Assembly: GCA_945900965.1 (NCBI GenBank)
Contig: CAMDKM010000015.1
Span: forward strand, 1-64,000
From: Bordetella parapertussis
GTDB taxonomy: Bacteria; Pseudomonadota; Gammaproteobacteria; Burkholderiales; JACQAP01
Direction of reading: 5' to 3'
DNA length: 64,000 nt
Of the stretch, positions 5,531-60,996 are shown piece by piece (the first letter of the stretch is position 1; each line of letters begins with the position of its first letter). The notes under the pieces are model-generated. The model saw only the letters and a list, made by a program, of their open reading frames with translations. It was not told the origin of the DNA and did not search any database. The position numbers were made by a program, and so were the translations under genes.

Positions 5531-6304
5531 TTACTTCGTGGGTGCGCCGGAGGGAGGTTCGTCGCCGAAGTCTTCTTCTTCCAGCTCCAGCAGTGTTTTC
5601 GGCCGAGTGGCGCCGGGTTCGTTACTGATCGGCGGTTCGCCATCGTGTACCTGATATTCGCGGCGCTGTATCACCGCGTCGCGAATGAAGCTGTATTTAT
5701 CCATGCCGGATTGTTCGAGAAACTCTCCCGCGCCTAGCAGCTTGGCCCGTGCATCGATAAAGCGCACCGCAGTGAGGGAATTTTTCTCCCGCGGCTCGTC
5801 CACGACATAAGTTGTCGGGTACAGGTAATAATCCACTGGCAAGGCGACGCCATCCCGGACGGAACTTGGGCCCAATATCGGCAGCACCAGATAGGGCCCG
5901 CTTCCCACGCCCCAGTAACCCAGCGTCTGACCAAAGTCTTCGTTGCGATTTTCGATTTTTAGTTCCGTCGCCACGTCCAGCAAGCCGCCCAGGCCAAATA
6001 CCAGATTGGTGGTAAAGCGCATGATATCGACCGGGACTTTCGATCCCTTCAACTGCGCGGCGTCGTTGAGTGCGGTGACCAGCACACCGAGATTACTGAA
6101 AAAATTGCCAATCCCGGTCTGCACCATATCCGGCAGCACCTTGTCGTAGGCCTTGGCGACTGGCTTGGCCACAATCTTGTCGAAACCTTCGTTGAAGGAA
6201 TGGACCTTGCGATTGAATTTTTCGTAAGGGTCCTTGGGATTCGGGCCGGCCGCGCATCCTGACATCAGGCAGGCAGCGGCAAGAAGGAAAGGAAGGCGTG
6301 TCAT
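5531..6304 (-). CDS. mlaA: MlaA/VacJ family outer-membrane lipoprotein
   Basis: A lipoprotein of about 257 residues. MTRLPFLLAAACLMSGC is a lipoprotein signal with lipobox LMSGC, and this fixes the start at 6304, 17 codons inside the longest frame. The body shows the family hallmarks: DPYEKFNRKVHSFNEGFDK, then VRFxTNLVFGLGGLLDVAT-like and LGxWGVGxGPYLVLPILGPSSVRD segments. MlaA removes mislocalised phospholipid from the outer leaflet of the outer membrane, working with porins and the MlaFEDB transporter. The other mla genes are not nearby. The last 40 residues are acidic and Pro/Thr-rich, a variable tail. Confidence 0.93.
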   Translation of the reverse strand: MTRLPFLLAAACLMSGCAAGPNPKDPYEKFNRKVHSFNEGFDKIVAKPVAKAYDKVLPDMVQTGIGNFFSNLGVLVTALNDAAQLKGSKVPVDIMRFTTNLVFGLGGLLDVATELKIENRNEDFGQTLGYWGVGSGPYLVLPILGPSSVRDGVALPVDYYLYPTTYVVDEPREKNSLTAVRFIDARAKLLGAGEFLEQSGMDKYSFIRDAVIQRREYQVHDGEPPISNEPGATRPKTLLELEEEDFGDEPPSGAPTK

Positions 6305-6463
6305 GTCATCGCATATCGAATCGCGGCCGATTATATCCTGATGCCGCAGGGGCATGAAATGGTCGGCAGGTTTGCAAATCCCGGAATATTGCTTCAGGAT
6401 CGAGGCTTGACGTGGCGGACTCCATCTGCCTTGGCGTGATAATAACGGGAGGAAAACAAAATC

Positions 6464-7243
6464 ATGGAACTTGGCATCAAAGGAAAATCGGCTTTGGTCT
6501 GCGCGGGCAGCAAAGGATTAGGCAAGGGCTGCGCCGTTGCGCTGGCGCGTGAAGGCGTGAATATCACAATCGTTGCGCGCGGCAAGGAGGCGCTGGAGGC
6601 TACGGCGGCAGAAATTCGCCAAGCCACCGGCGTGCAAGTGGTCACGGTGGCAGCCGATATCACCACCGAAAGTGGTCGAAAGGAAGCGCTGGCCGCCTGT
6701 CCCGCGCCGGACATCCTGGTCAACAATGCCGGCGGCCCGCCGCCGGGGGATTTTCGCCAGTTCACCCGCGACGATTGGATCAAGGCCGTGGACGCCAACA
6801 TGCTTACGCCAATCGAACTGATCAAAGCCACCCTGGATGGCATGATGGCGCGAAAATTCGGACGCATCGTCAACATCACATCGAGTGCCGTCAAGGCGCC
6901 GATCGCGGAACTCGGGCTCTCCAATGGCGCACGCACCGGCCTGACGGGTTTCATTGCAGGCTTGGCCCGAAAGACGGCCGCGCAGAATGTGACGATGAAC
7001 AACATCCTTCCGGGTAGATTCTGGACCGACCGGCTCAAAGGCAATGTCGAGTTCAATGCCAAGACTCAGAGCAAGACGGTTGATGAGGTCAAGATCGCTC
7101 TGGAAAAAGCGATTCCAGCCGGCCGCTTCGGCAACGCCGAGGAATTCGGCCAGCTCTGTGCCTATATTTGCAGCGCACAGGCGAGCTACATCACCGCACA
7201 GAATTTTCTGATCGACGGGGGGGCGTACCCCGGGACGTTTTAA
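6464..7243 (+). CDS. SDR family oxidoreductase lacking the usual Tyr/Lys pair
   Basis: A 259-residue Rossmann protein with a strong GGGAGG site before the ATG. The cofactor motif is GSKGLGKG (residues 15-22) and the NNAGG motif is at 88-92. The catalytic Ser lies in ITSS (S140), but where Tyr and Lys of YxxxK should be (13 and 17 residues on) the protein has Ser153 and Arg157 (SNGAR). A known SDR subgroup carries LSNxxR here, so this is a subfamily feature rather than an error. Substrate is unknown. No operon partner is obvious; the next gene is 48 bases away. Confidence 0.85.
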   Translation: MELGIKGKSALVCAGSKGLGKGCAVALAREGVNITIVARGKEALEATAAEIRQATGVQVVTVAADITTESGRKEALAACPAPDILVNNAGGPPPGDFRQFTRDDWIKAVDANMLTPIELIKATLDGMMARKFGRIVNITSSAVKAPIAELGLSNGARTGLTGFIAGLARKTAAQNVTMNNILPGRFWTDRLKGNVEFNAKTQSKTVDEVKIALEKAIPAGRFGNAEEFGQLCAYICSAQASYITAQNFLIDGGAYPGTF

Positions 7244-7291
7244 GGAAATAGTACCGATATCTCCAGAGGCCACGCCCGTGGATCCGGCTTC

Positions 7292-7822
7292 ATGAAACCT
7301 TCTCTCGTCCCGGCGGCACGCATCGAGCGCGCCATTCTGGTGTTGCGCGGCCAGAAGGTTTTGCTCGACGCGGACCTGGCGGGGCTCTATGAGGTGGAGA
7401 CGCGGGCTCTGGTACAGGCGGTCAAGCGCAACCTGGACCGCTTTCCGGCGGATTTCATGTTTCAGTTGGGCGCCGAGGAGGTGGAACTTTTGAGATCACA
7501 ATCTGTGATCTCAAAGAATCCAGGGCGCGGCGGCCGACGGTATGCACCCTACGCTTTCACCGAGCAGGGGGTGGCGATGTTGTCGAGCGTGCTCAACAGT
7601 CCGCGCGCCATCGCGGTGAACATCGAGATCATGCGTGCCTTTGTGCGGCTGCGCGAATTGATCGCCTCGAACAAGGAGCTTGCTGCCAAGCTCGATCAAC
7701 TGGAAAGAAAGCTCTCGACCCACGATCAGGCGATTACGGAGATCATGCACGCGATCCGCGAGTTGATGCGCCCACCGGAGCCAGCGAAGAAGCGTCCCAT
7801 CGGGTTCATCACGCCGAAATAG
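7292..7822 (+). CDS. ORF6N domain-containing protein
   Basis: A 176-residue protein whose N-terminal 100 residues fit the ORF6N domain, first known from phage antirepressor-like proteins: [32 protein letters not shown], with the conserved [13 protein letters not shown] and [15 protein letters not shown] segments. The C-terminal part (about 115-155) is a predicted coiled coil. ORF6N proteins are common as single genes in bacterial chromosomes and presumably bind DNA, but their host function is unknown. No phage genes surround it. Confidence 0.85.
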
Positions 7823-7963
7823 GTGTGAGCGTCAATAAGGACAACGCCTGACGCAACGGAAAGGCGTACGCAGGAAATTCTTTAGCGGCTGTAAGGCAAA
7901 AGTTTGACCCTGGGCCTGGGTCTATAATTTGCCGATAACGTCACAGACTCGGAGGAAATAGCG

Positions 7964-9445
7964 ATGAATGCACCGCGCGAAGCAGGGTTTAATCTTCAGC
8001 TAAAGGATGCGAAGCTCTTTCGCCAGCACGCCTATATCAACGGCGCCTGGCTGGATGCAGATTCGAAATTGACTGTTAATGTCAGCAATCCTGCCAATGG
8101 TGCGGTGATTGGCAGCATTCCCAAGATGGGAGCAAATGAAACCCGGCGGGCGATTGAAGCGGCGTCTGCGGCGCTGCCGGCTTGGCGGGCGAAGACAGCG
8201 AAGGAGCGCTCCGCGGTGTTGCGCAAGTGGTTCGAGTTGATGATGGCGAACCAGGATGATCTCGGGTTGCTCATGACCACGGAGCAGGGCAAGCCGCTTC
8301 CGGAAGCGAAGGGAGAGATTGCCTATGCGGCCTCCTTTATCGAATGGTTTGCCGAGGAAGCCAAACGCGTTTACGGCGAGGTGATACCCAGTCCGTGGTC
8401 GGACAAACGTTTGGTATGTATCAAACAACCGATCGGTGTGTGCGGTCTGATCACGCCCTGGAATTTTCCGGCGGCGATGATTACGCGCAAGGCGGGGCCG
8501 GCGCTGGCGGCGGGCTGCACGGTGGTCATCAAGCCGGCTACCCAGACGCCATTTTCGGCTTTGGCATTGGCCGAACTCGCGGAACGTGCTGGAGTGCCGA
8601 AGGGGGTGCTGAATGTCGTGACGGGGTCGGCGAAGGAAATCGGCGGCGAACTGACCTCGAATACGACGGTGCGAAAAATCAGCTTTACCGGTTCCACCGA
8701 AGTGGGGGCGGTGCTGATGAAGCAAAGCGCCGAGACCATCAAGAAGGTTTCCCTGGAGCTGGGTGGTAATGCGCCGTTTCTGGTATTCGACGATGCTGAC
8801 CTGGATGCCGCCGTCGAAGGGGCCATGATTTCCAAGTACCGCAACAATGGGCAGACATGCGTGTGTGCCAATCGCATTCTGGTGCAGGACGGGGTCTACG
8901 ACAGTTTCGCGGCCAAGCTCACCGCCAAGGTGGCTGGGCTCAAAGTGGGGCCGGGAACGGAAGCGGGCGTCAATGTCGGGCCGCTGATCGACGACAAGGC
9001 GGTGGCGAAAGTCGAGGAGCATATTCAGGATGCTTTGGCCAAAGGCGCAAAAGTGGTGGTGGGTGGCAAGAGACATTCCTTGGGTGGGTTGTTTTTCGAG
9101 CCGACTGTTCTGACCGGCGTGAATACGACCATGAAAGTGACTCGCGAGGAAACATTTGGCCCGGTGGCGCCGCTGTTCCGCTTCAAGACGGAAGCCGAAG
9201 GTATTGCCATGGCCAACGACACTGAATTCGGACTTGCGGCCTACTTTTACGCTCGCGATGTGGGGCGCATTTGGCGGGTGGGCGAGGGGATCGAATCGGG
9301 CATGGTAGGGGTCAATACCGGACTGATCTCCAATGAGGTGGCGCCCTTCGGTGGGGTGAAGCAAAGTGGCATTGGACGCGAAGGGTCGAAGTACGGGATC
9401 GAGGAATATCTCGAAGTGAAATATTTATGCATGGGCGGGATGTAG
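7964..9445 (+). CDS. gabD: NAD(P)-dependent succinate-semialdehyde dehydrogenase
   Basis: A 493-residue aldehyde dehydrogenase. The catalytic Cys lies in NNGQTCVCANR and the general-base Glu in SLELGGNAPFLVF; the cofactor motif is FTGSTEVG. Typical GabD segments are TPWNFPAAMITRK, EQGKPLPEAKGEI and the C-terminal GGVKQSGIGREGSKYGIEEYLEVKYLC. It oxidises succinate semialdehyde to succinate at the end of the GABA shunt. A GGAGGAAATA site precedes the ATG. No gabT is adjacent. The gene end (from about 9421) is partly duplicated 165 bases downstream. Related semialdehyde dehydrogenases cannot be fully excluded. Confidence 0.9.
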   Translation: MNAPREAGFNLQLKDAKLFRQHAYINGAWLDADSKLTVNVSNPANGAVIGSIPKMGANETRRAIEAASAALPAWRAKTAKERSAVLRKWFELMMANQDDLGLLMTTEQGKPLPEAKGEIAYAASFIEWFAEEAKRVYGEVIPSPWSDKRLVCIKQPIGVCGLITPWNFPAAMITRKAGPALAAGCTVVIKPATQTPFSALALAELAERAGVPKGVLNVVTGSAKEIGGELTSNTTVRKISFTGSTEVGAVLMKQSAETIKKVSLELGGNAPFLVFDDADLDAAVEGAMISKYRNNGQTCVCANRILVQDGVYDSFAAKLTAKVAGLKVGPGTEAGVNVGPLIDDKAVAKVEEHIQDALAKGAKVVVGGKRHSLGGLFFEPTVLTGVNTTMKVTREETFGPVAPLFRFKTEAEGIAMANDTEFGLAAYFYARDVGRIWRVGEGIESGMVGVNTGLISNEVAPFGGVKQSGIGREGSKYGIEEYLEVKYLCMGGM

Positions 9446-9891
9446 CTGGGTTACGGCCTTGAAAGAAAGGCTCGACGCAAAGGCGCAAAGACGCAAAGAG
9501 AGACGAGAAAGAAATAGAGGAAAAGATCGAATATGTTGCGTTGAGTAATGGGGCGGGGCCCTGGTTATCCGCGTGAGTTTTCATATATTTGTGCATGAGT
9601 GGGATGTAGCCGGATTACGGCTTTAAACAAGAGCTAGACGCAAAGAAAGGCGAGAAAGAACGCGAAGGAAAGCAAGGAAAGCGGATCGAAAATGATTTGA
9701 TGGATGTTGGTTCGAACGGAGAATTATTATTCTTTGAACCCCCTGGATTCCCGTTTCCGCAGGAATGACGATTCGGGATGATTTTCGTGTTTCCTTGAAG
9801 GTTTTCTCTGCGTTTCTTTGCGCCCTTTGCGTCGAGATTTTCTTTTAGCTCTATGTGTTTTCGTCGTTGACACGCCGCGGAGGGGATACAC
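9446..9891. repeat. Repeat-filled intergenic block with duplicated gabD end
   Basis: This 446-base gap holds no gene. Bases 9421-9535, which include the last gabD codons and stop, are repeated imperfectly at about 9586-9700. CGCAAAG-type units (9474-9500 and 9639-9650) face inverted copies (CTTTGCGCCCTTTGCGTCG at 9818-9836), giving an inverted-repeat structure of about 370 bases. The block ends with a GGAGGGG ribosome site for the next gene. Confidence 0.75.
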
Positions 9892-11559
9892 GTGACGCCA
9901 TTCAATCAACCGGCCCCGCAACTCGATAATCAATATCGCTCCGATCGCGTGCTGCGCTCTTACCTAAAGCGGGTGCTGCCTGCGGATATGGCGCATGTGG
10001 TCGAGAAGGAATATTTGGTGATGGGGGATCTGGCGGGAGGAGAACTGTATCGTTTCCAACTTGCCGACCGTTTGAACGAACCCCGCCACACGCCCTGGGA
10101 TGCCTGGGGTAATCGCATCGATCTGATCGAAGTCACGCCCTTGTGGAAACGAGCCGAAGAGATTGCGGCTCGCTGCGGACTGGTTGCAACCGCCTACGAG
10201 AAAAAACATGGCCGATTTTCGCGGGTTCATCAATTTGCGTTGGTGTATCTGTTTACGCCGTCTACCGATGTTTATAGTTGCCCGCTGGCGATGACCGATG
10301 GGGCGGCGAAAGCAATTGTCGCCGCGGATAATCGCGAGTTGATCGGGCGTGCAGTGCCGCACTTGTCTTCCCGTGACCCGGCGCAGTTCTGGACCAGTGG
10401 GCAGTGGATGACGGAAAGCACTGGAGGCTCGGACGTCGGGCTTTCGGAAACGATCGCGCGCAGCGATGGTGGGCAGTGGCGATTGTATGGGCGCAAGTGG
10501 TTCACTTCCGCCGTCACCTCACAGATGGCGCTTACGCTGGCAAGGCCGGAAGGTAATCCCGCTGGAGGCAAGGGGCTCGCGTTTTTCTACCTGGAAACGC
10601 GCAATGCCGAGGGAAACCTCAATAACATCCTGGTCCATCGGCTGAAAGACAAACTGGGTACACGCAAAGTGCCCACGGCCGAACTGACGCTGGACGGAAC
10701 CCCGGCTACCCTTGTGGCGGGCGAGTCGGATGGCGTGCGCAATATTGGCCCGATGCTCAATGTGACACGGACCTGGAACAGTATCAGCGCGGTGAGTTAC
10801 ATGCGCCGAGGACTTGCGCTGGCGCGAGATTATGCGAGCAAGAGAGTCGCGTTTGGTGCGGCGCTAGCCGACAAGCCATTACATGCCGATACCCTGGCCG
10901 GTTTGCAGGCGGAATATGAGGCGGGCTTTCATCTGGCATTTTTTGTGGTCGAGTTGCTCGGCCGCGAAGAGTCCGAGGCGATGGACGCTGCTGGACGAGA
11001 ATTCCTGCGCCTGATGACGCCCATTGCCAAACTGGTCACCGGACGCCAGAGCGTTGCGGTGCTGTCGGAGATCGTGGAAAGTTTTGGCGGGGCCGGTTAT
11101 GTGGAAGACACGGGCATTCCGATGCTGCTGCGTGACGCCCAGGTGTTCTCGATCTGGGAAGGCACGACCAATGTGCTGGCGCTGGATGCGCTGAGAGTCT
11201 TGAAAAGCGGTGACGCGGCCGGTTCCTTGCAGATTGAAATCGAAACGCTGGCTTCAATCGTGCGCGACACGCGATTGCTTGCGGCGGTAAAGATTGCACA
11301 AGCGGCTTTGCAGCGGGCGCAGGCGTGGCTCTCGAGCGCTGTTGGGGAAAATAGCGAGGCCGGTGCGCGCCGTCTGGCGATGACTCTTGGGCGCTTGTTC
11401 GCACTGGTGTTGTTGTGCCGCCATGCGCAGTGGTCGCTGGATCACGAGCGCGACGAACGCGCGCTTCATGCGGCCACTAGGTTTGCCCGTAACGGTGTCG
11501 ATTTGATTACCTCGGACGATGTGGCGGGATCGTACCTGTTGGCCAACGATCGTTCTTGA
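9892..11559 (+). CDS. AidB-like acyl-CoA dehydrogenase
   Basis: A 555-residue flavoprotein of the acyl-CoA dehydrogenase superfamily, longer than ordinary short-chain members (about 380) and similar in length and layout to E. coli AidB. Recognisable are the FAD/substrate segment WMTESTGGSDVG, the YGRKWFTSA segment, ACAD core TWNSISAVSYMRRGLALARDYA followed by RVAFG, and the C-terminal SFGGAGYVEDTGIPMLLRDAQV ending IWEGTTNV. AidB itself is linked to alkylation resistance and binds DNA; most relatives are catabolic, and the substrate here is unknown. The start is GTG with a GGAGGGG site about 6 bases upstream. Confidence 0.88.
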   Translation: MTPFNQPAPQLDNQYRSDRVLRSYLKRVLPADMAHVVEKEYLVMGDLAGGELYRFQLADRLNEPRHTPWDAWGNRIDLIEVTPLWKRAEEIAARCGLVATAYEKKHGRFSRVHQFALVYLFTPSTDVYSCPLAMTDGAAKAIVAADNRELIGRAVPHLSSRDPAQFWTSGQWMTESTGGSDVGLSETIARSDGGQWRLYGRKWFTSAVTSQMALTLARPEGNPAGGKGLAFFYLETRNAEGNLNNILVHRLKDKLGTRKVPTAELTLDGTPATLVAGESDGVRNIGPMLNVTRTWNSISAVSYMRRGLALARDYASKRVAFGAALADKPLHADTLAGLQAEYEAGFHLAFFVVELLGREESEAMDAAGREFLRLMTPIAKLVTGRQSVAVLSEIVESFGGAGYVEDTGIPMLLRDAQVFSIWEGTTNVLALDALRVLKSGDAAGSLQIEIETLASIVRDTRLLAAVKIAQAALQRAQAWLSSAVGENSEAGARRLAMTLGRLFALVLLCRHAQWSLDHERDERALHAATRFARNGVDLITSDDVAGSYLLANDRS

Positions 11560-57206: not shown

Positions 57207-57971
57207 TCATGTGACACGGAAGCCCGTGATGATTCCCGCCGCGGCCCAGCGCAGCAAGACCGGACTGGGGTCGAAGTCCGCGGCTATGCCCAAAGTCTGC
57301 TCGATTGCGGCGCTAAAGGTTTCACGAGCATGCAGCGCTTTGGCCAGCGTGAATTCGGCGGTGGAGAGTTTTGCAATCTCCACGTCAAAAACGCGGCGAT
57401 AGACGATCAACGAGTCCGCTCCCTCCGCAAGGGCGATGACTTCTGCGGGTGCATCGGAGCGGCGATTGACTTCCCAGATTTGCAATACGGGGTAGTCCGA
57501 ATGAAGCAGATGGAAGGCAGGCTGAAACTCGAAACGAAGCCGGGGATAGTCGGCTGGTGCGACCTGCCCCAGCAACTGGATGTTAAATGGGTGTGCGTCG
57601 GCGGCATGAAAGGCGGTGTGCCAGTGCCATTCCAGCCGTGCGACATCCGGGAGATAGGCCAGCGCGCGCGCCGGCGCATAGTCAAAAAGAAAATTCGAAA
57701 ATGCGTCGCCGTAAGGGTGCAGGTCGCCGCTGTGACTGGGTATCTGTCGCGCGAAGTGGGTAGCGGCTTGATCAAAAAAGGATTCTCCGGTAAGGCGCAG
57801 GACCACCGGGAACACCGAGCGCAGGGCGTTGCGCAGGTTGGCGAGAACACTATTGGGATAGATATCGAAGCGTGCCGCGGGCGCAACGATCCAGTCGCGA
57901 ACGCCGGTGTCGTTCTCGAAAACGCCGCGAGCAAAGGCGTTCTGAAGTTCAGGCAGCGAGGGTGTGCGCAT
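57207..57971 (-). CDS. bufC: Bufferin maturation partner BufC (DUF2063)
   Basis: A 254-residue protein. The N-terminal DUF2063 domain is clear: LPELQNAFARGVFEN, ARFDIYPNSVLANLRNALRSVFPVVLRLTGESFF, then FLFDYAPARALAYLPDVARLEWHWHTAFHA. In bufferin and related MNIO pathways this protein carries a precursor-recognition domain and works with the DUF692 enzyme. Its start overlaps the end of bufB by 23 bases, showing translational coupling. It is the last gene of the operon. Confidence 0.92.
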   Translation of the reverse strand: MRTPSLPELQNAFARGVFENDTGVRDWIVAPAARFDIYPNSVLANLRNALRSVFPVVLRLTGESFFDQAATHFARQIPSHSGDLHPYGDAFSNFLFDYAPARALAYLPDVARLEWHWHTAFHAADAHPFNIQLLGQVAPADYPRLRFEFQPAFHLLHSDYPVLQIWEVNRRSDAPAEVIALAEGADSLIVYRRVFDVEIAKLSTAEFTLAKALHARETFSAAIEQTLGIAADFDPSPVLLRWAAAGIITGFRVT

Positions 57972-58800
57972 CTTGCTGCATCAAATCCGCTTGGCGCGCT
58001 TCGCCAACCAGCGTTGCAAGCGAAGGAATGTCGGTATCCCACTCGATCAAGGTCGGGCGTCGGCCTATGAGCTTCAGCGTCTGGGTATACAACGCCCACA
58101 CCGGCTCCTGCACGAGTCGGCCATGGGTATCGATCAGGCATTCTCCAGTCTCGTCGAAACCTGCCAGGTGGATCTCTTCCACTGACTCCGGCTCGACAGC
58201 GGCCAGGCTATCGATGGGATCGAAACCGTGATTCACTGCGTTGACGTAAATATTGTTGACGTCGAGCAGCAAACCGCAGCCGGTGCGCCGGCATAAGGCG
58301 GCTAGGAACTCGAATTCCGGAATCGTCGAATGCGCAAAGCGCACATAGGCTGCGATATTCTCAATGAGGATGCGGCGACCGAGCCGGGTCTGTACGCGCT
58401 CGATACGTTCCGCAACATGCGCCAGCGCTTCCTCGGTATAAGGAAGTGGCAGCAATTCATTCAAATAGCGTCCGCCGATGGAACTCCAGCACAGATGTTC
58501 GGACACCAGAAAGGGCTGGTAGCGTCGTATCAGTCGGTCCAGAGCAGTCAGATGGGTGAGGTTTAATTCGTCGGCAGAGCCGAGCGACAAACCCACGCCG
58601 TGCAGGCTCAGCGGGTAGTGGTGGCGGGCCTGTTCAAGGAAATAATGCGGCTGGCCGCCCTCACCGAAAAAATTCTCGCTATGAACCTCGAGAAATCCGA
58701 GGGCCGGACGTTCATCGAGCAGCGAACGATAGTGCGGAGGACGCCATCCGATCCCGGCGGCGACAGTCTTTGCTTCGGCCGCCGCCGGTGTTGGAATCAC
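57949..58800 (-). CDS. bufB: Bufferin-modifying MNIO enzyme BufB (DUF692)
   Basis: A 283-residue TIM-barrel multinuclear non-haem iron oxidase. Conserved ligand segments are GFLEVHSENFF, LSLHGVGLSLG, LIENIAAYV, LLLDVNNIYVNAVNHGFDP, EIHLAGF, DTHG and LIEWDTDIPSL. In described bufferins it converts precursor cysteines to thiooxazole-type rings using iron and oxygen. The start is GTG, 25 bases after the precursor gene, and it overlaps bufC. Its place between a DUF2282 precursor and DUF2063 gene makes the assignment firm. Confidence 0.94.
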   Translation of the reverse strand: MIPTPAAAEAKTVAAGIGWRPPHYRSLLDERPALGFLEVHSENFFGEGGQPHYFLEQARHHYPLSLHGVGLSLGSADELNLTHLTALDRLIRRYQPFLVSEHLCWSSIGGRYLNELLPLPYTEEALAHVAERIERVQTRLGRRILIENIAAYVRFAHSTIPEFEFLAALCRRTGCGLLLDVNNIYVNAVNHGFDPIDSLAAVEPESVEEIHLAGFDETGECLIDTHGRLVQEPVWALYTQTLKLIGRRPTLIEWDTDIPSLATLVGEARQADLMQQDAHTLAA

Positions 58801-58825
58801 GTCTAACTAGGGAACTGTAGGAAGG

Positions 58826-59086
58826 TTACTTCTTTCCGACGACGGTTCCGCCGACGATCTTCGCGCAAGTGCCGGCGGGGACGTAAATCCACTCTTCCTT
58901 GTCACCATCCTGCGCTGCCTGGCCGGAGCAGGAGTGCTTCGAGGTGCCGCAATCGTTCTGGCCAGCTTTGACGACGCCAGCACATTTTTCCTTGGTCTCC
59001 TTGGCTGCTTGGGCGGAACCGCTGGCAAGACCGAGTGCAAGCAGGCTGGCGATGGCGGTGTTGACGATCACATTGCTATTGTTCAT
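58826..59086 (-). CDS. bufA1: Bufferin precursor peptide BufA1 (DUF2282)
   Basis: An 86-residue precursor. The signal peptide [20 protein letters not shown] ends at AQA (27), so the product is exported. The mature peptide has four Cys (35, 46, 53, 74) in [18 protein letters not shown] and GTCAKI, the DUF2282 pattern. In known bufferins the inner Cys (46 and 53 here) are modified and the outer pair forms a disulfide. AGGAG lies 7 bases before ATG. The peptide would sequester copper in the periplasm. About 190 bases separate it from the anti-sigma gene, room for a dedicated promoter. Confidence 0.92.
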
Positions 59087-59274
59087 GAACTCTCCTGTTG
59101 ATGTATAACGCTGAAATATTCGTAATGCACGAAAACTCCGGGAATATCTGCAATCCCCGGTTGTAGAACAAGTTAAACCTGATGCAACTTGCAACTGCCA
59201 CGATAAATCCGGCCGTGCGCCCCCAAATGACTGCAGGCTTCGGGATTCGACGGGTAAGAAATAGCCGCGCTGTT

Positions 59275-59976
59275 TCAACTGTCCCAACGAATTCGGGACC
59301 GCAGCAGCGATTCGACCTTGATCGAACGCTCCGGGGAATCGGTCAGGATGCCCATGCTACCCTGCCGAAGTGGCACCACCGTGACCGAAAAACCTTCGCG
59401 GACCATCGATTGCGAAGTCGAGGCCTGCATGCTGGGCAGCAGGATCACGGTGGCGGTGCCATGTTCGGTTTGCACGACAATGTGCATCGCCTGCACGCCC
59501 AGAATCGGACACAATTTCATATGGGTCACTTCGCCTAGCGACCCATCGAGTACCCCGCCATACTCCGAAAATGCGGCTGCAAACTTGGCCGGTTCAATGG
59601 AATGGCGCGCGTTCAATTCATCGGGATGGGATGCCACATGCGCCGCAAAAGCGTTCGCTACCTCATTGCGATCCGGCATCAAATAGAAGGTAAACGACGC
59701 CAAAACCGCCACCGCAATTGTTGCGGCCATCGCAAGATAAGGCCGTTGAAAACTACTCGGTTTGCCGGTTTTATCGACACCCAGGAGAATTTGCTCGGCA
59801 AATCCGTCAGGAACCACAACTGCCGCCACATCATGCAGTTTGCGCTCGAACGCGTCGATCGTTTTCGCGAAAACCGCGCAGGGAGGACACAAGTTTTCGT
59901 GCTTGATCTGTTCGGCAGTCGCCGATTGCGGTTCGGCGAGTTTTAGTCGTCGGAAGTTCGAGCAGTCCATGGTCAT
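59275..59976 (-). CDS. DUF3379-like zinc-type anti-sigma factor
   Basis: A 233-residue single-pass membrane protein. The N-terminal cytoplasmic part has the zinc anti-sigma motif H-x3-C-x2-C (H26, C30, C33: HENLCPPC). A transmembrane helix follows at about 80-101 ([20 protein letters not shown]) and a periplasmic domain of about 130 residues after it. It follows the sigma gene by 8 bases, so the two are co-expressed. It should hold the sigma factor until a signal, plausibly metal or thiol stress, releases it. Confidence 0.88.
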
Positions 59977-59984
59977 TAGCCTTG

Positions 59985-60470
59985 TTATGCAGCGCCGCTG
60001 CTGGGCGCGGCAAGTTTTTGAAGGGACTGTCGTGCGCGAGTCAGCCGCGTCATCACGTTTTCTTCTGAAAGATTAAGCATGGCCGCGATTTCCTTGCCGC
60101 TGAATCCGCCCAGCACCTGGAGGAGCAGAGGTTCGCGGAAATTCTCGGGCAGGGCGCGCAGCATGTTTTCCAGTTCAACTCTTTCCAGTTCGCTGCCATC
60201 GCTGGCCACCCCAATATCTTCCAACTCGGTATCGACCAGTTCAAGACGCTTACGCTGGTATACGCGGATATGTTCGTTGCGAAGGATGGAAAACAGCCAT
60301 GATTTTGTCGCCTTGCCCTCCCGCAAGGATTCCCGACCCTTCCAGGCGGCGATAAAAGTTTCCTGCACCAAGTCCTGAGCCTGCCAGCGATTGCGGCAAA
60401 GCCAGTGGGCGAATCGAAACAAATCCGATGAATACGCGCGCACCATCGCTTCATATTCCGTCTCGCTCAT
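59985..60470 (-). CDS. ECF-type RNA polymerase sigma factor
   Basis: An ECF sigma factor of about 161 residues. Region 2 reads DLFRFAHWLCRNRWQAQDLVQETFIAAWKG and region 4 LPENFREPLLLQVLGGFSGKEIAAMLNLSEENVMTRLTRARQSL. The start at 60470 gives the normal ECF length, but an ATG at 60596 has a better GAGGA site and would add 42 residues. A perfect TATAAT (reverse strand, 60608-60613) lies just upstream. It sits directly before its anti-sigma factor and the buf operon and is the obvious candidate regulator. Confidence 0.92.
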   Translation of the reverse strand: MSETEYEAMVRAYSSDLFRFAHWLCRNRWQAQDLVQETFIAAWKGRESLREGKATKSWLFSILRNEHIRVYQRKRLELVDTELEDIGVASDGSELERVELENMLRALPENFREPLLLQVLGGFSGKEIAAMLNLSEENVMTRLTRARQSLQKLAAPSSGAA

Positions 60471-60996
60471 GGCGCCGATCGCCGAGGACGACGTCCGAGC
60501 CACGTGACCATGCGAGCCTGTTGCCGCTTTTGGGGCGATTGGGCGCGAGGCGCGGGGAGAGCACCAACCGGACAAAGCAGGGCAAGCAAGGGACATGACA
60601 TTCCTCATTATACGAATACGGCCTGGTTGCGGACATCGGCAATGCCCAGGAAATCTGGGCTCGCAATATTTTTTACCGCTTGCCTGGGAGGAGACAGGGT
60701 CCGGGGTGGATTCCTTACAAGGGCAAGCGTCGATTCCATAAAGATTTTTCCATATTTAGGGCATGAGGGGCCCGTAAGGCTCCCGGCGTATCTGGGACTG
60801 CAGTTGGCGGGCTCGGTCCGGGAACTGACGGACTGATAAAAATATTATAAATTTCATAATGATGCGGCATAAATCCGGGTGAGGCTGCATACGACGCGAC
60901 GGGCAGGCACACGATTCCCTTAGAATCGCGCCTTGCCCGAAATCTTCGGTTTGAAACGCACATCCCCGATGCCGCGCTGACGCAGGGACCAAAAAG
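60471..60996. other. Intergenic region upstream of the sigma factor
   Basis: About 390-520 bases between divergent genes, depending on the sigma start. No further gene is seen. Reverse-strand TATAAT at 60608-60613 is a candidate -10 box for the sigma gene; no matching -35 at normal distance is evident. AT-rich bases 60837-60862 could serve the forward SDR gene. Confidence 0.5.

Follow-up and report, generated by a model that had tools for sequence, protein, structure and literature searches.

The window examined here is a stretch of 64,000 nucleotides of Bordetella parapertussis DNA (contig CAMDKM010000015.1, positions 1 to 64,000), taken from an assembly of 3.88 Mb in 103 contigs that is 96.82% complete. 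Within its positions 57207-60470 lie five genes, all on the minus strand, which encode an extracytoplasmic function (ECF) sigma factor, a presumed membrane anti-sigma factor of the Pfam family DUF3379 and the three proteins BufA, BufB and BufC of a bufferin operon; each of the five products scored above the curated Pfam cut-off. The genes are as follows.

59985..60470, minus strand: ECF sigma factor, 161 amino acids counted from the methionine before SETEYEAMVRAYSS; the open frame starts at 60608.
59275..59976, minus strand: DUF3379 membrane protein, presumed anti-sigma factor, 233 amino acids (PF11859, 110.1 bits against a cut-off of 33.2).
58826..59086, minus strand: bufA, the Buf1 (DUF2282) precursor, 86 amino acids (PF10048, 82.8 bits against 22.4).
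57949..58800, minus strand: bufB, the MNIO bufferin maturase (NCBIfam MNIO_BufB, 380.3 bits against 310).
57207..57971, minus strand: bufC, the DUF2063 partner protein (PF09836, 76.2 bits against 27.2).

The sigma factor possesses both of the sigma-70 regions that mark an ECF sigma factor, namely region 2 (Pfam Sigma70_r2, 57.5 bits) and region 4 (Sigma70_r4_2, 50.8 bits), each above its cut-off, along with an NCBIfam TIGR02937 score of 81.3 against a cut-off of 42.9, and it is 61-63% identical to the sigma factors of three related loci (L057, L058 and L059). An earlier note on this DNA, made from the sequence alone, had described a complete Buf1 operon behind an ECF sigma factor and an H-x3-C-x2-C membrane protein, and this description is borne out by the five Pfam matches and the MNIO_BufB score. 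Its statement that the genes lie in order with overlaps holds for the order and for bufB and bufC, which share 23 bases, but not for the remaining junctions, where gaps of 8 bases (sigma/anti-sigma), 188 bases (anti-sigma/bufA) and 25 bases (bufA/bufB) were found.

BufA carries the four cysteines of a Buf1 precursor, at positions 35, 46, 53 and 74 as read in the sequence, behind an N-terminus that resembles a signal peptide by eye, and Cys46 and Cys53, the residues singled out in the earlier note, are indeed the central pair. In published Buf1 bufferins, which have four cysteines, the central ones are modified while the first and last are joined by a disulphide, and copper binding by bufferins is likewise published (accessible part of PMC12452194). 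The window precursor, encoded by the sole DUF2282 gene of its assembly, falls outside the BufA2 type (28.7 bits against the NCBIfam NF050166 cut-off of 60). Both the MNIO maturase and the DUF2063 partner expected of a Buf1 operon are encoded within it; BufB reached 359.1 bits with the Pfam MNIO model and has a solved relative (3bww), and BufC scored 46.4 with NCBIfam HvfC, below that model's cut-off of 142. Damage to BufB, suspected from its motif IHLAGF, was dropped as F is about as frequent as H at that position (43 F, 42 H, 18 Y, 1 G, 1 C and 24 without the motif, all approximate since the row filter was loose).

The partner of the sigma factor is a DUF3379 protein rather than NrsF, as the earlier note had maintained: no match to NrsF (PF06532) was obtained in the anti-sigma protein up to E 1, nor across the window assembly. 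NrsF is the anti-sigma factor named for Buf1 clusters in a 2025 survey of MNIO clusters (accessible part of PMC12452194). The neighbour comparison of DUF2282 clusters that the earlier note had proposed was run for the order on 132 clusters from 130 loci (9 clusters had no bufB nearby, and some loci were truncated by contig ends), with G536:C86, G442:C111, G648:C17, G482:C1 and G592:C1 left out. Among the matches listed, 88 clusters had no sigma gene within 4.5 kb, and the 44 sigma-bearing ones had as partner a short H-x3-C-x2-C protein in 23 cases (called by motif and position, not by family score), NrsF in 13, DUF3379 in 5 and another or no detectable partner in 3. Among the three named anti-sigma classes, zinc-type partners were the most frequent and DUF3379 proteins the least. 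The claim of an unusual anti-sigma factor can hence be retained as regards the DUF3379 family (5/44), but not as regards its zinc-type character, which is common (23/44 with the short H-x3-C-x2-C protein, among the matches listed). The operon itself is real and well formed, and a DUF3379 class of anti-sigma factor at a bufferin operon was not found in print; the term DUF3379 was absent from the literature searched, which did not extend to most subscription papers and supplements and leaves its absence unproven.

Among 399 genomes of the order, DUF2282 was found in 123 and a DUF3379 match in 13 (12 above cut-off), and in 5 of these 13, namely the window assembly, G450, G750, G409 and G415 (the last with divergent operons), DUF3379 adjoins DUF2282. 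A draw of 398 genomes from the phylum yielded 33 other genomes with DUF3379, of which 15 also have DUF2282 and none has the two nearby, the shortest distance on a shared contig being about 85 kb. The pairing of DUF3379 with bufferin operons is not a product of chance. When the sigma alignment was used to scan named genomes, 80 loci were kept and three more bufferin loci (L200, L227 and L230) came to light, bringing the DUF3379-bufferin loci to nine in all: the window, L057, L058, L059, L060, L065 (BufA2 type), L200, L227 and L230. They span several families and both beta- and gammaproteobacterial records.

The layout differs among these loci. In a Rhodocyclaceae metagenome-assembled genome (MAG; L200) bufABC lies ahead of the sigma gene, in a Chromatiales MAG (L227:2811-7178) a single bufABC is flanked by two sigma/DUF3379 pairs, and in a gammaproteobacterial MAG (L230) the arrangement is divergent. 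L065 (genome G746; 5706-11210) comprises a second sigma gene, the sigma gene, DUF3379, 1.8 kb with opposite-strand open reading frames (ORFs) and a BufA2-type operon (BufA2 82 bits against 60; BufB 395.6 against 310), and was counted although its BufA2 gene begins 1.8 kb past DUF3379. L220 (Thiomicrorhabdus), where an MNIO gene stands about 4 kb from the sigma gene, was not counted, this gene being of HvfB type by NCBIfam (421.1 against 360) with other genes in between. In a quick tree of BufB (n=127, SH-aLRT support only) the four rows nearest to the window are all DUF3379 loci (L057, L200, L059 and L058), and two relatives from the window's own genus, G455 and G496, have bufABC and no DUF3379 match; these two patterns together suggest that the sigma/DUF3379/bufferin module was inherited or moved as one unit.

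Some neighbouring arrangements were noted in passing. A second ECF sigma gene adjoins the sigma/DUF3379 pair in L060, L063, L065 and L066, hinting at a cascade. DUF3379 proteins with the zinc-type anti-sigma (ZAS) motif, referred to below as ZAS-positive, also occur in pairs devoid of a bufferin operon, near DUF3179 genes in L198:7198-8334 and L203:3680-4831 and near DUF302 and DsrE2 genes in L199:7297-8305. In L063:8199-11177 a sigma gene, DUF3379 and a second sigma gene are followed by a cytochrome c whose haem domain is flanked by cysteine repeats of NPCAAK type, and also by a separate peptide of such repeats that looks exported and has no Pfam match; the repeat product is possibly a further cysteine-rich metal-binding product under a DUF3379-type regulator. 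In two bufferin clusters, L098:2135-3270 and L103:2150-3288, the sigma gene comes after bufC and the next ORF has one hydrophobic span and no H-x3-C-x2-C; the one-span protein of L098 had no Pfam match at E 0.01, and this ORF is a possible fourth type of anti-sigma factor.

Upstream of the sigma gene in the window a candidate promoter can be recognised.

60693..60719, minus strand: putative promoter of the sigma operon, TGTAAGG-N17-GTC, the sole exact site in the 3.88 Mb assembly.

The reversed pattern, searched as a control, gave 7 sites in the same assembly. The shorter form GTAAGG-N17-GTC precedes the first sigma gene in the window, L057, L059, L065, L066, L197 and L203, and bufA in L058, L059, L065 and L200; exact sites stand on both sides of the divergent locus L059, and in L065 the motif lies before both the sigma gene and the BufA2 gene. 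Altogether bufA has its own motif copy in 6 of the 9 DUF3379-bufferin loci, the window bufA having none. With a leave-one-out matrix, bufA regions reached a score of at least 9 in 5 of the 8 ZAS-positive DUF3379 loci and in none of the 141 controls (0/13 at NrsF loci, 0/128 with neither partner), the BufA2 gene of L065, with its exact site 119 bases ahead of the start, standing outside this count. Sigma regions scored at least 9 at 12 of 29 ZAS-positive loci against 0 of 91 controls without DUF3379 (0/13 and 0/78), and at 2 of 59 ZAS-negative DUF3379 loci, a group that includes loci with a shortened DUF3379 (L067, L225). The pattern was first spotted by eye upstream, and the matrix omits the locus being scored, yet the pattern derives from these very loci. 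The sigma genes of L198, L208 and L226 and the second sigma gene of L227 lacked a good site, as did those of L060 (5.5), L064 (4.4) and L074 (4.5).

Control of the operon by the adjacent sigma factor, as put forward in the earlier note, is supported by this shared motif at the level of promoter sequence. The opposite view, that the two gene sets are neighbours without regulatory link and that bufABC is read from an unrelated promoter of its own, appears very improbable; it could draw on the 188-base gap and on the window bufA that lacks a motif copy, but the pairing is repeated in nine loci across several families of beta- and gammaproteobacterial records, and motif copies do precede bufA in relatives.

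The DUF3379 protein itself can be divided into three parts.

59878..59964, minus strand: zinc-type motif C5-x20-H26-x3-C30-x2-C33, predicted cytoplasmic, read in the sequence.
59683..59754, minus strand: predicted transmembrane helix, residues 75-98, a helix in the model and hydrophobic in sequence, of presumed topology.
59278..59670, minus strand: predicted periplasmic domain, residues 103-233, with H113, C156 and H165, proposed from conservation and a weak RseB fold match.

The motif H-x3-C-x2-C reads HENLCPPC here (H26, C30, C33) and is completed by C5 to C-x20-H-x3-C-x2-C, so that all four ligands are present, but at a spacing of X20 against the published X23-26 (accessible part of PMC7907618). 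An AlphaFold2 model of the protein (mean pLDDT 90.1, pTM 0.64) consists of a helical N-terminal part, the helix 75-98 and an alpha/beta part from residue 103 onward, in which two consecutive strands, 149-158 and 161-170, carry C156 and H165 respectively. All 80 DUF3379 proteins compared have these two residues and 77 have H113 (exceptions L065, L066 and L203), while H-x3-C-x2-C is found in 22 and missing from 58, two of the latter having an H-x3-C-x3-C variant. The 22 ZAS-positive proteins were set apart from the rest by a branch with 100/100 support, in a tree that contained them and 10 of the 58 ZAS-negative rows, L067 and L225 being excluded as too short; all ten bufferin-adjacent DUF3379 proteins are ZAS-positive. 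No sequence match to solved chains was obtained up to E 1, and the best PDB fold matches of the model were RseB and MucB chains and TM1622, with scores that unrelated folds can reach. Residues 131-233 matched RseB 218-315 weakly by Foldseek (E 0.0042, prob 1.00) and by VIA (Z 6.7-6.8, 90-93 residues aligned, rmsd 3.5-3.7).

It was proposed in the earlier note that the thiol-rich motif is itself the metal switch, in which case a thiol-reactive metal or oxidation at the cytoplasmic H-x3-C-x2-C would free the sigma factor, as in RsrA-type soluble anti-sigma factors. The four ligands are all in place, the motif is carried by 10/10 bufferin-adjacent DUF3379 proteins while 0/58 motif-less ones are bufferin-adjacent (30 of the loci in this comparison had a 1.5 kb flank, and DUF2282 was located genome-wide for them), and short ZAS proteins adjoin the 23 other DUF2282 clusters. 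The proposal is nevertheless weakened to the point of being rather improbable, as the motif is missing from 58/80 proteins against C156/H165 in 80/80 and the conserved outer domain would serve nothing; in RsiW-like membrane anti-sigma factors, moreover, the zinc site is structural. In our reading of these sequences, the outer domain would sense the signal and the zinc motif would belong to the sigma-binding part, being more likely a piece of the sigma-binding fold than a switch.

As an account of the whole locus, we incline by a modest degree to a self-contained periplasmic metal-stress module, in which sensing occurs in the periplasm and the sigma factor drives its own operon together with bufABC. 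The motif and the gene pair suggest that the single-pass DUF3379 anti-sigma factor would use its cytoplasmic zinc-type domain to hold the ECF sigma factor, and its periplasmic domain, with an invariant cysteine and histidine and a near-invariant second histidine, would be the likely sensor of copper or another thiol-loving metal, copper being suggested as signal by what bufferins do. The trigger would release the sigma factor, which would then transcribe its own operon from TGTAAGG-N17-GTC and continue into bufABC, consistent with the site and gene order observed; as the window bufA lacks a motif copy, read-through from the sigma promoter would be needed there. By analogy with published bufferins, BufB and BufC would modify the two central cysteines of BufA, and the peptide would reach the periplasm by Sec, bind copper and so remove the signal.

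A number of observations weigh against this module. Read-through must traverse 188 bases that include a terminator-like hairpin (59138-59160), and the bufA motif is absent in the window (-10.4), in L060 (-6.9) and, at N17 spacing, in L230 (-5.1), whose two sites, as read by eye, have N16 spacing. The motif is also found away from these loci in other genomes searched: the strict TGTAAGG-N17-GTC has 0 sites in G415, 1 in G450 (elsewhere), 2 in G750 (one at bufA) and 4 in G746 (two at its DUF3379-bufferin locus), exact GTAAGG-N17-GTC occurs away from sigma and bufA in L075, L124, L198 (other strand) and L212, and GTAAGG-N17-GTCTA has 0 sites in the window assembly and 2 in G409, neither at its bufferin locus. 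Rows labelled DUF3379 do not group as a single clade in the BufB tree (the label needs 6 changes against a shuffled mean of 8.8), and for 12 of the 22 ZAS-positive proteins the flanking DNA examined contains no bufferin operon. C156 and H165 are equally invariant where no bufferin is nearby and hence do not mark bufferin loci in particular; L065, itself a bufferin locus, has Phe in place of H113; and the fold matches are weak, with Foldseek E values never below 0.001 and VIA Z below 8, and may reflect a mere common arrangement. A terminator or attenuator between the anti-sigma gene and bufA was considered and dropped, hairpins of this kind being no more frequent than in shuffled sequence (6 found, shuffled mean 5.5) and the 188-base stretch folding no better than shuffles do (z -0.37).

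The sigma/DUF3379 pair might instead answer a general envelope or redox signal, with the bufferin operon as one of several passengers and copper not the inducer, which we regard as unlikely on the whole. Bufferin-less ZAS-positive pairs near DUF3179 (L198, L203), DUF302 and DsrE2 (L199) and a cysteine-repeat cytochrome c (L063) speak for it, as do eight ZAS-negative loci viewed, three of them near what we take to be fadL-like and three near presumably putP-like genes. Against it, the strict site occurs only at the bufferin operon in the window assembly, so the regulon looks local, and published bufferins bind copper (accessible part of PMC12452194).

Extending the periplasmic module beyond this locus, it is tentatively proposed, with less than even confidence, that ZAS-positive DUF3379 proteins constitute a new class of one-piece transmembrane metal sensors, which would join a zinc-type anti-sigma domain across the membrane to an RseB-like outer domain, where an invariant cysteine and histidine, usually with a second histidine, would bind Cu(I) or another thiol-loving metal, and which would govern exported cysteine-rich peptides of several unrelated kinds (Buf1 and BufA2, with the L063 proteins of NPCAAK repeats as a tentative third).

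Control of a membrane anti-sigma factor from the periplasm is known from RseA-RseB and MucA-MucB. Residues 131-233 of the model would resemble RseB 218-315, by the weak fold match given above, but RseB is a separate protein, whereas in DUF3379 the outer domain, with its invariant cysteine and histidine, is part of the anti-sigma factor itself. The SigF promoter motif of Caulobacter, GTAACC-N16-CGAA, differs from GTAAGG-N17-GTC. The SigF-NrsF system is otherwise alike in pairing an ECF sigma factor with a membrane anti-sigma factor and in having DUF2282, DUF692 and DUF2063 genes in its regulon, and two cysteines of NrsF that probably face the periplasm are important for its response (accessible part of PMC3511200). 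NrsF, however, has six putative spans, whereas the DUF3379 protein is predicted to cross the membrane once and combines a zinc-type motif with a folded outer domain. The short ZAS anti-sigma factors, represented by the 23 clusters of the order and by HrsE of Haemophilus with its relatives, are alike in placing an H-x3-C-x2-C protein beside an ECF sigma gene, but HrsE is a cytoplasmic protein of 67 amino acids with no outer domain and a C/H-X23-26-H spacing instead of the X20 of the DUF3379 protein, and it is tied to msrAB and hypochlorite stress (accessible part of PMC7907618). As the terms DUF692, hvf and copper are absent from the accessible part of that source, HrsE offers no precedent there for bufferin control.

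Overall, the analysis proposes a role for a Pfam family of unknown function, DUF3379, extends by one the anti-sigma classes that are likely to control bufferins, and provides a promoter motif that can be used to predict regulons. The BufA2-type operon of L065, near an ECF pair and with the motif before both, contrasts with the 2025 survey, where sigma and NrsF genes are described in Buf1 but not Buf2 clusters (accessible part of PMC12452194). The invariant residues in the predicted periplasmic domain of DUF3379 suggest that bacteria may have an additional means of switching bufferins on.

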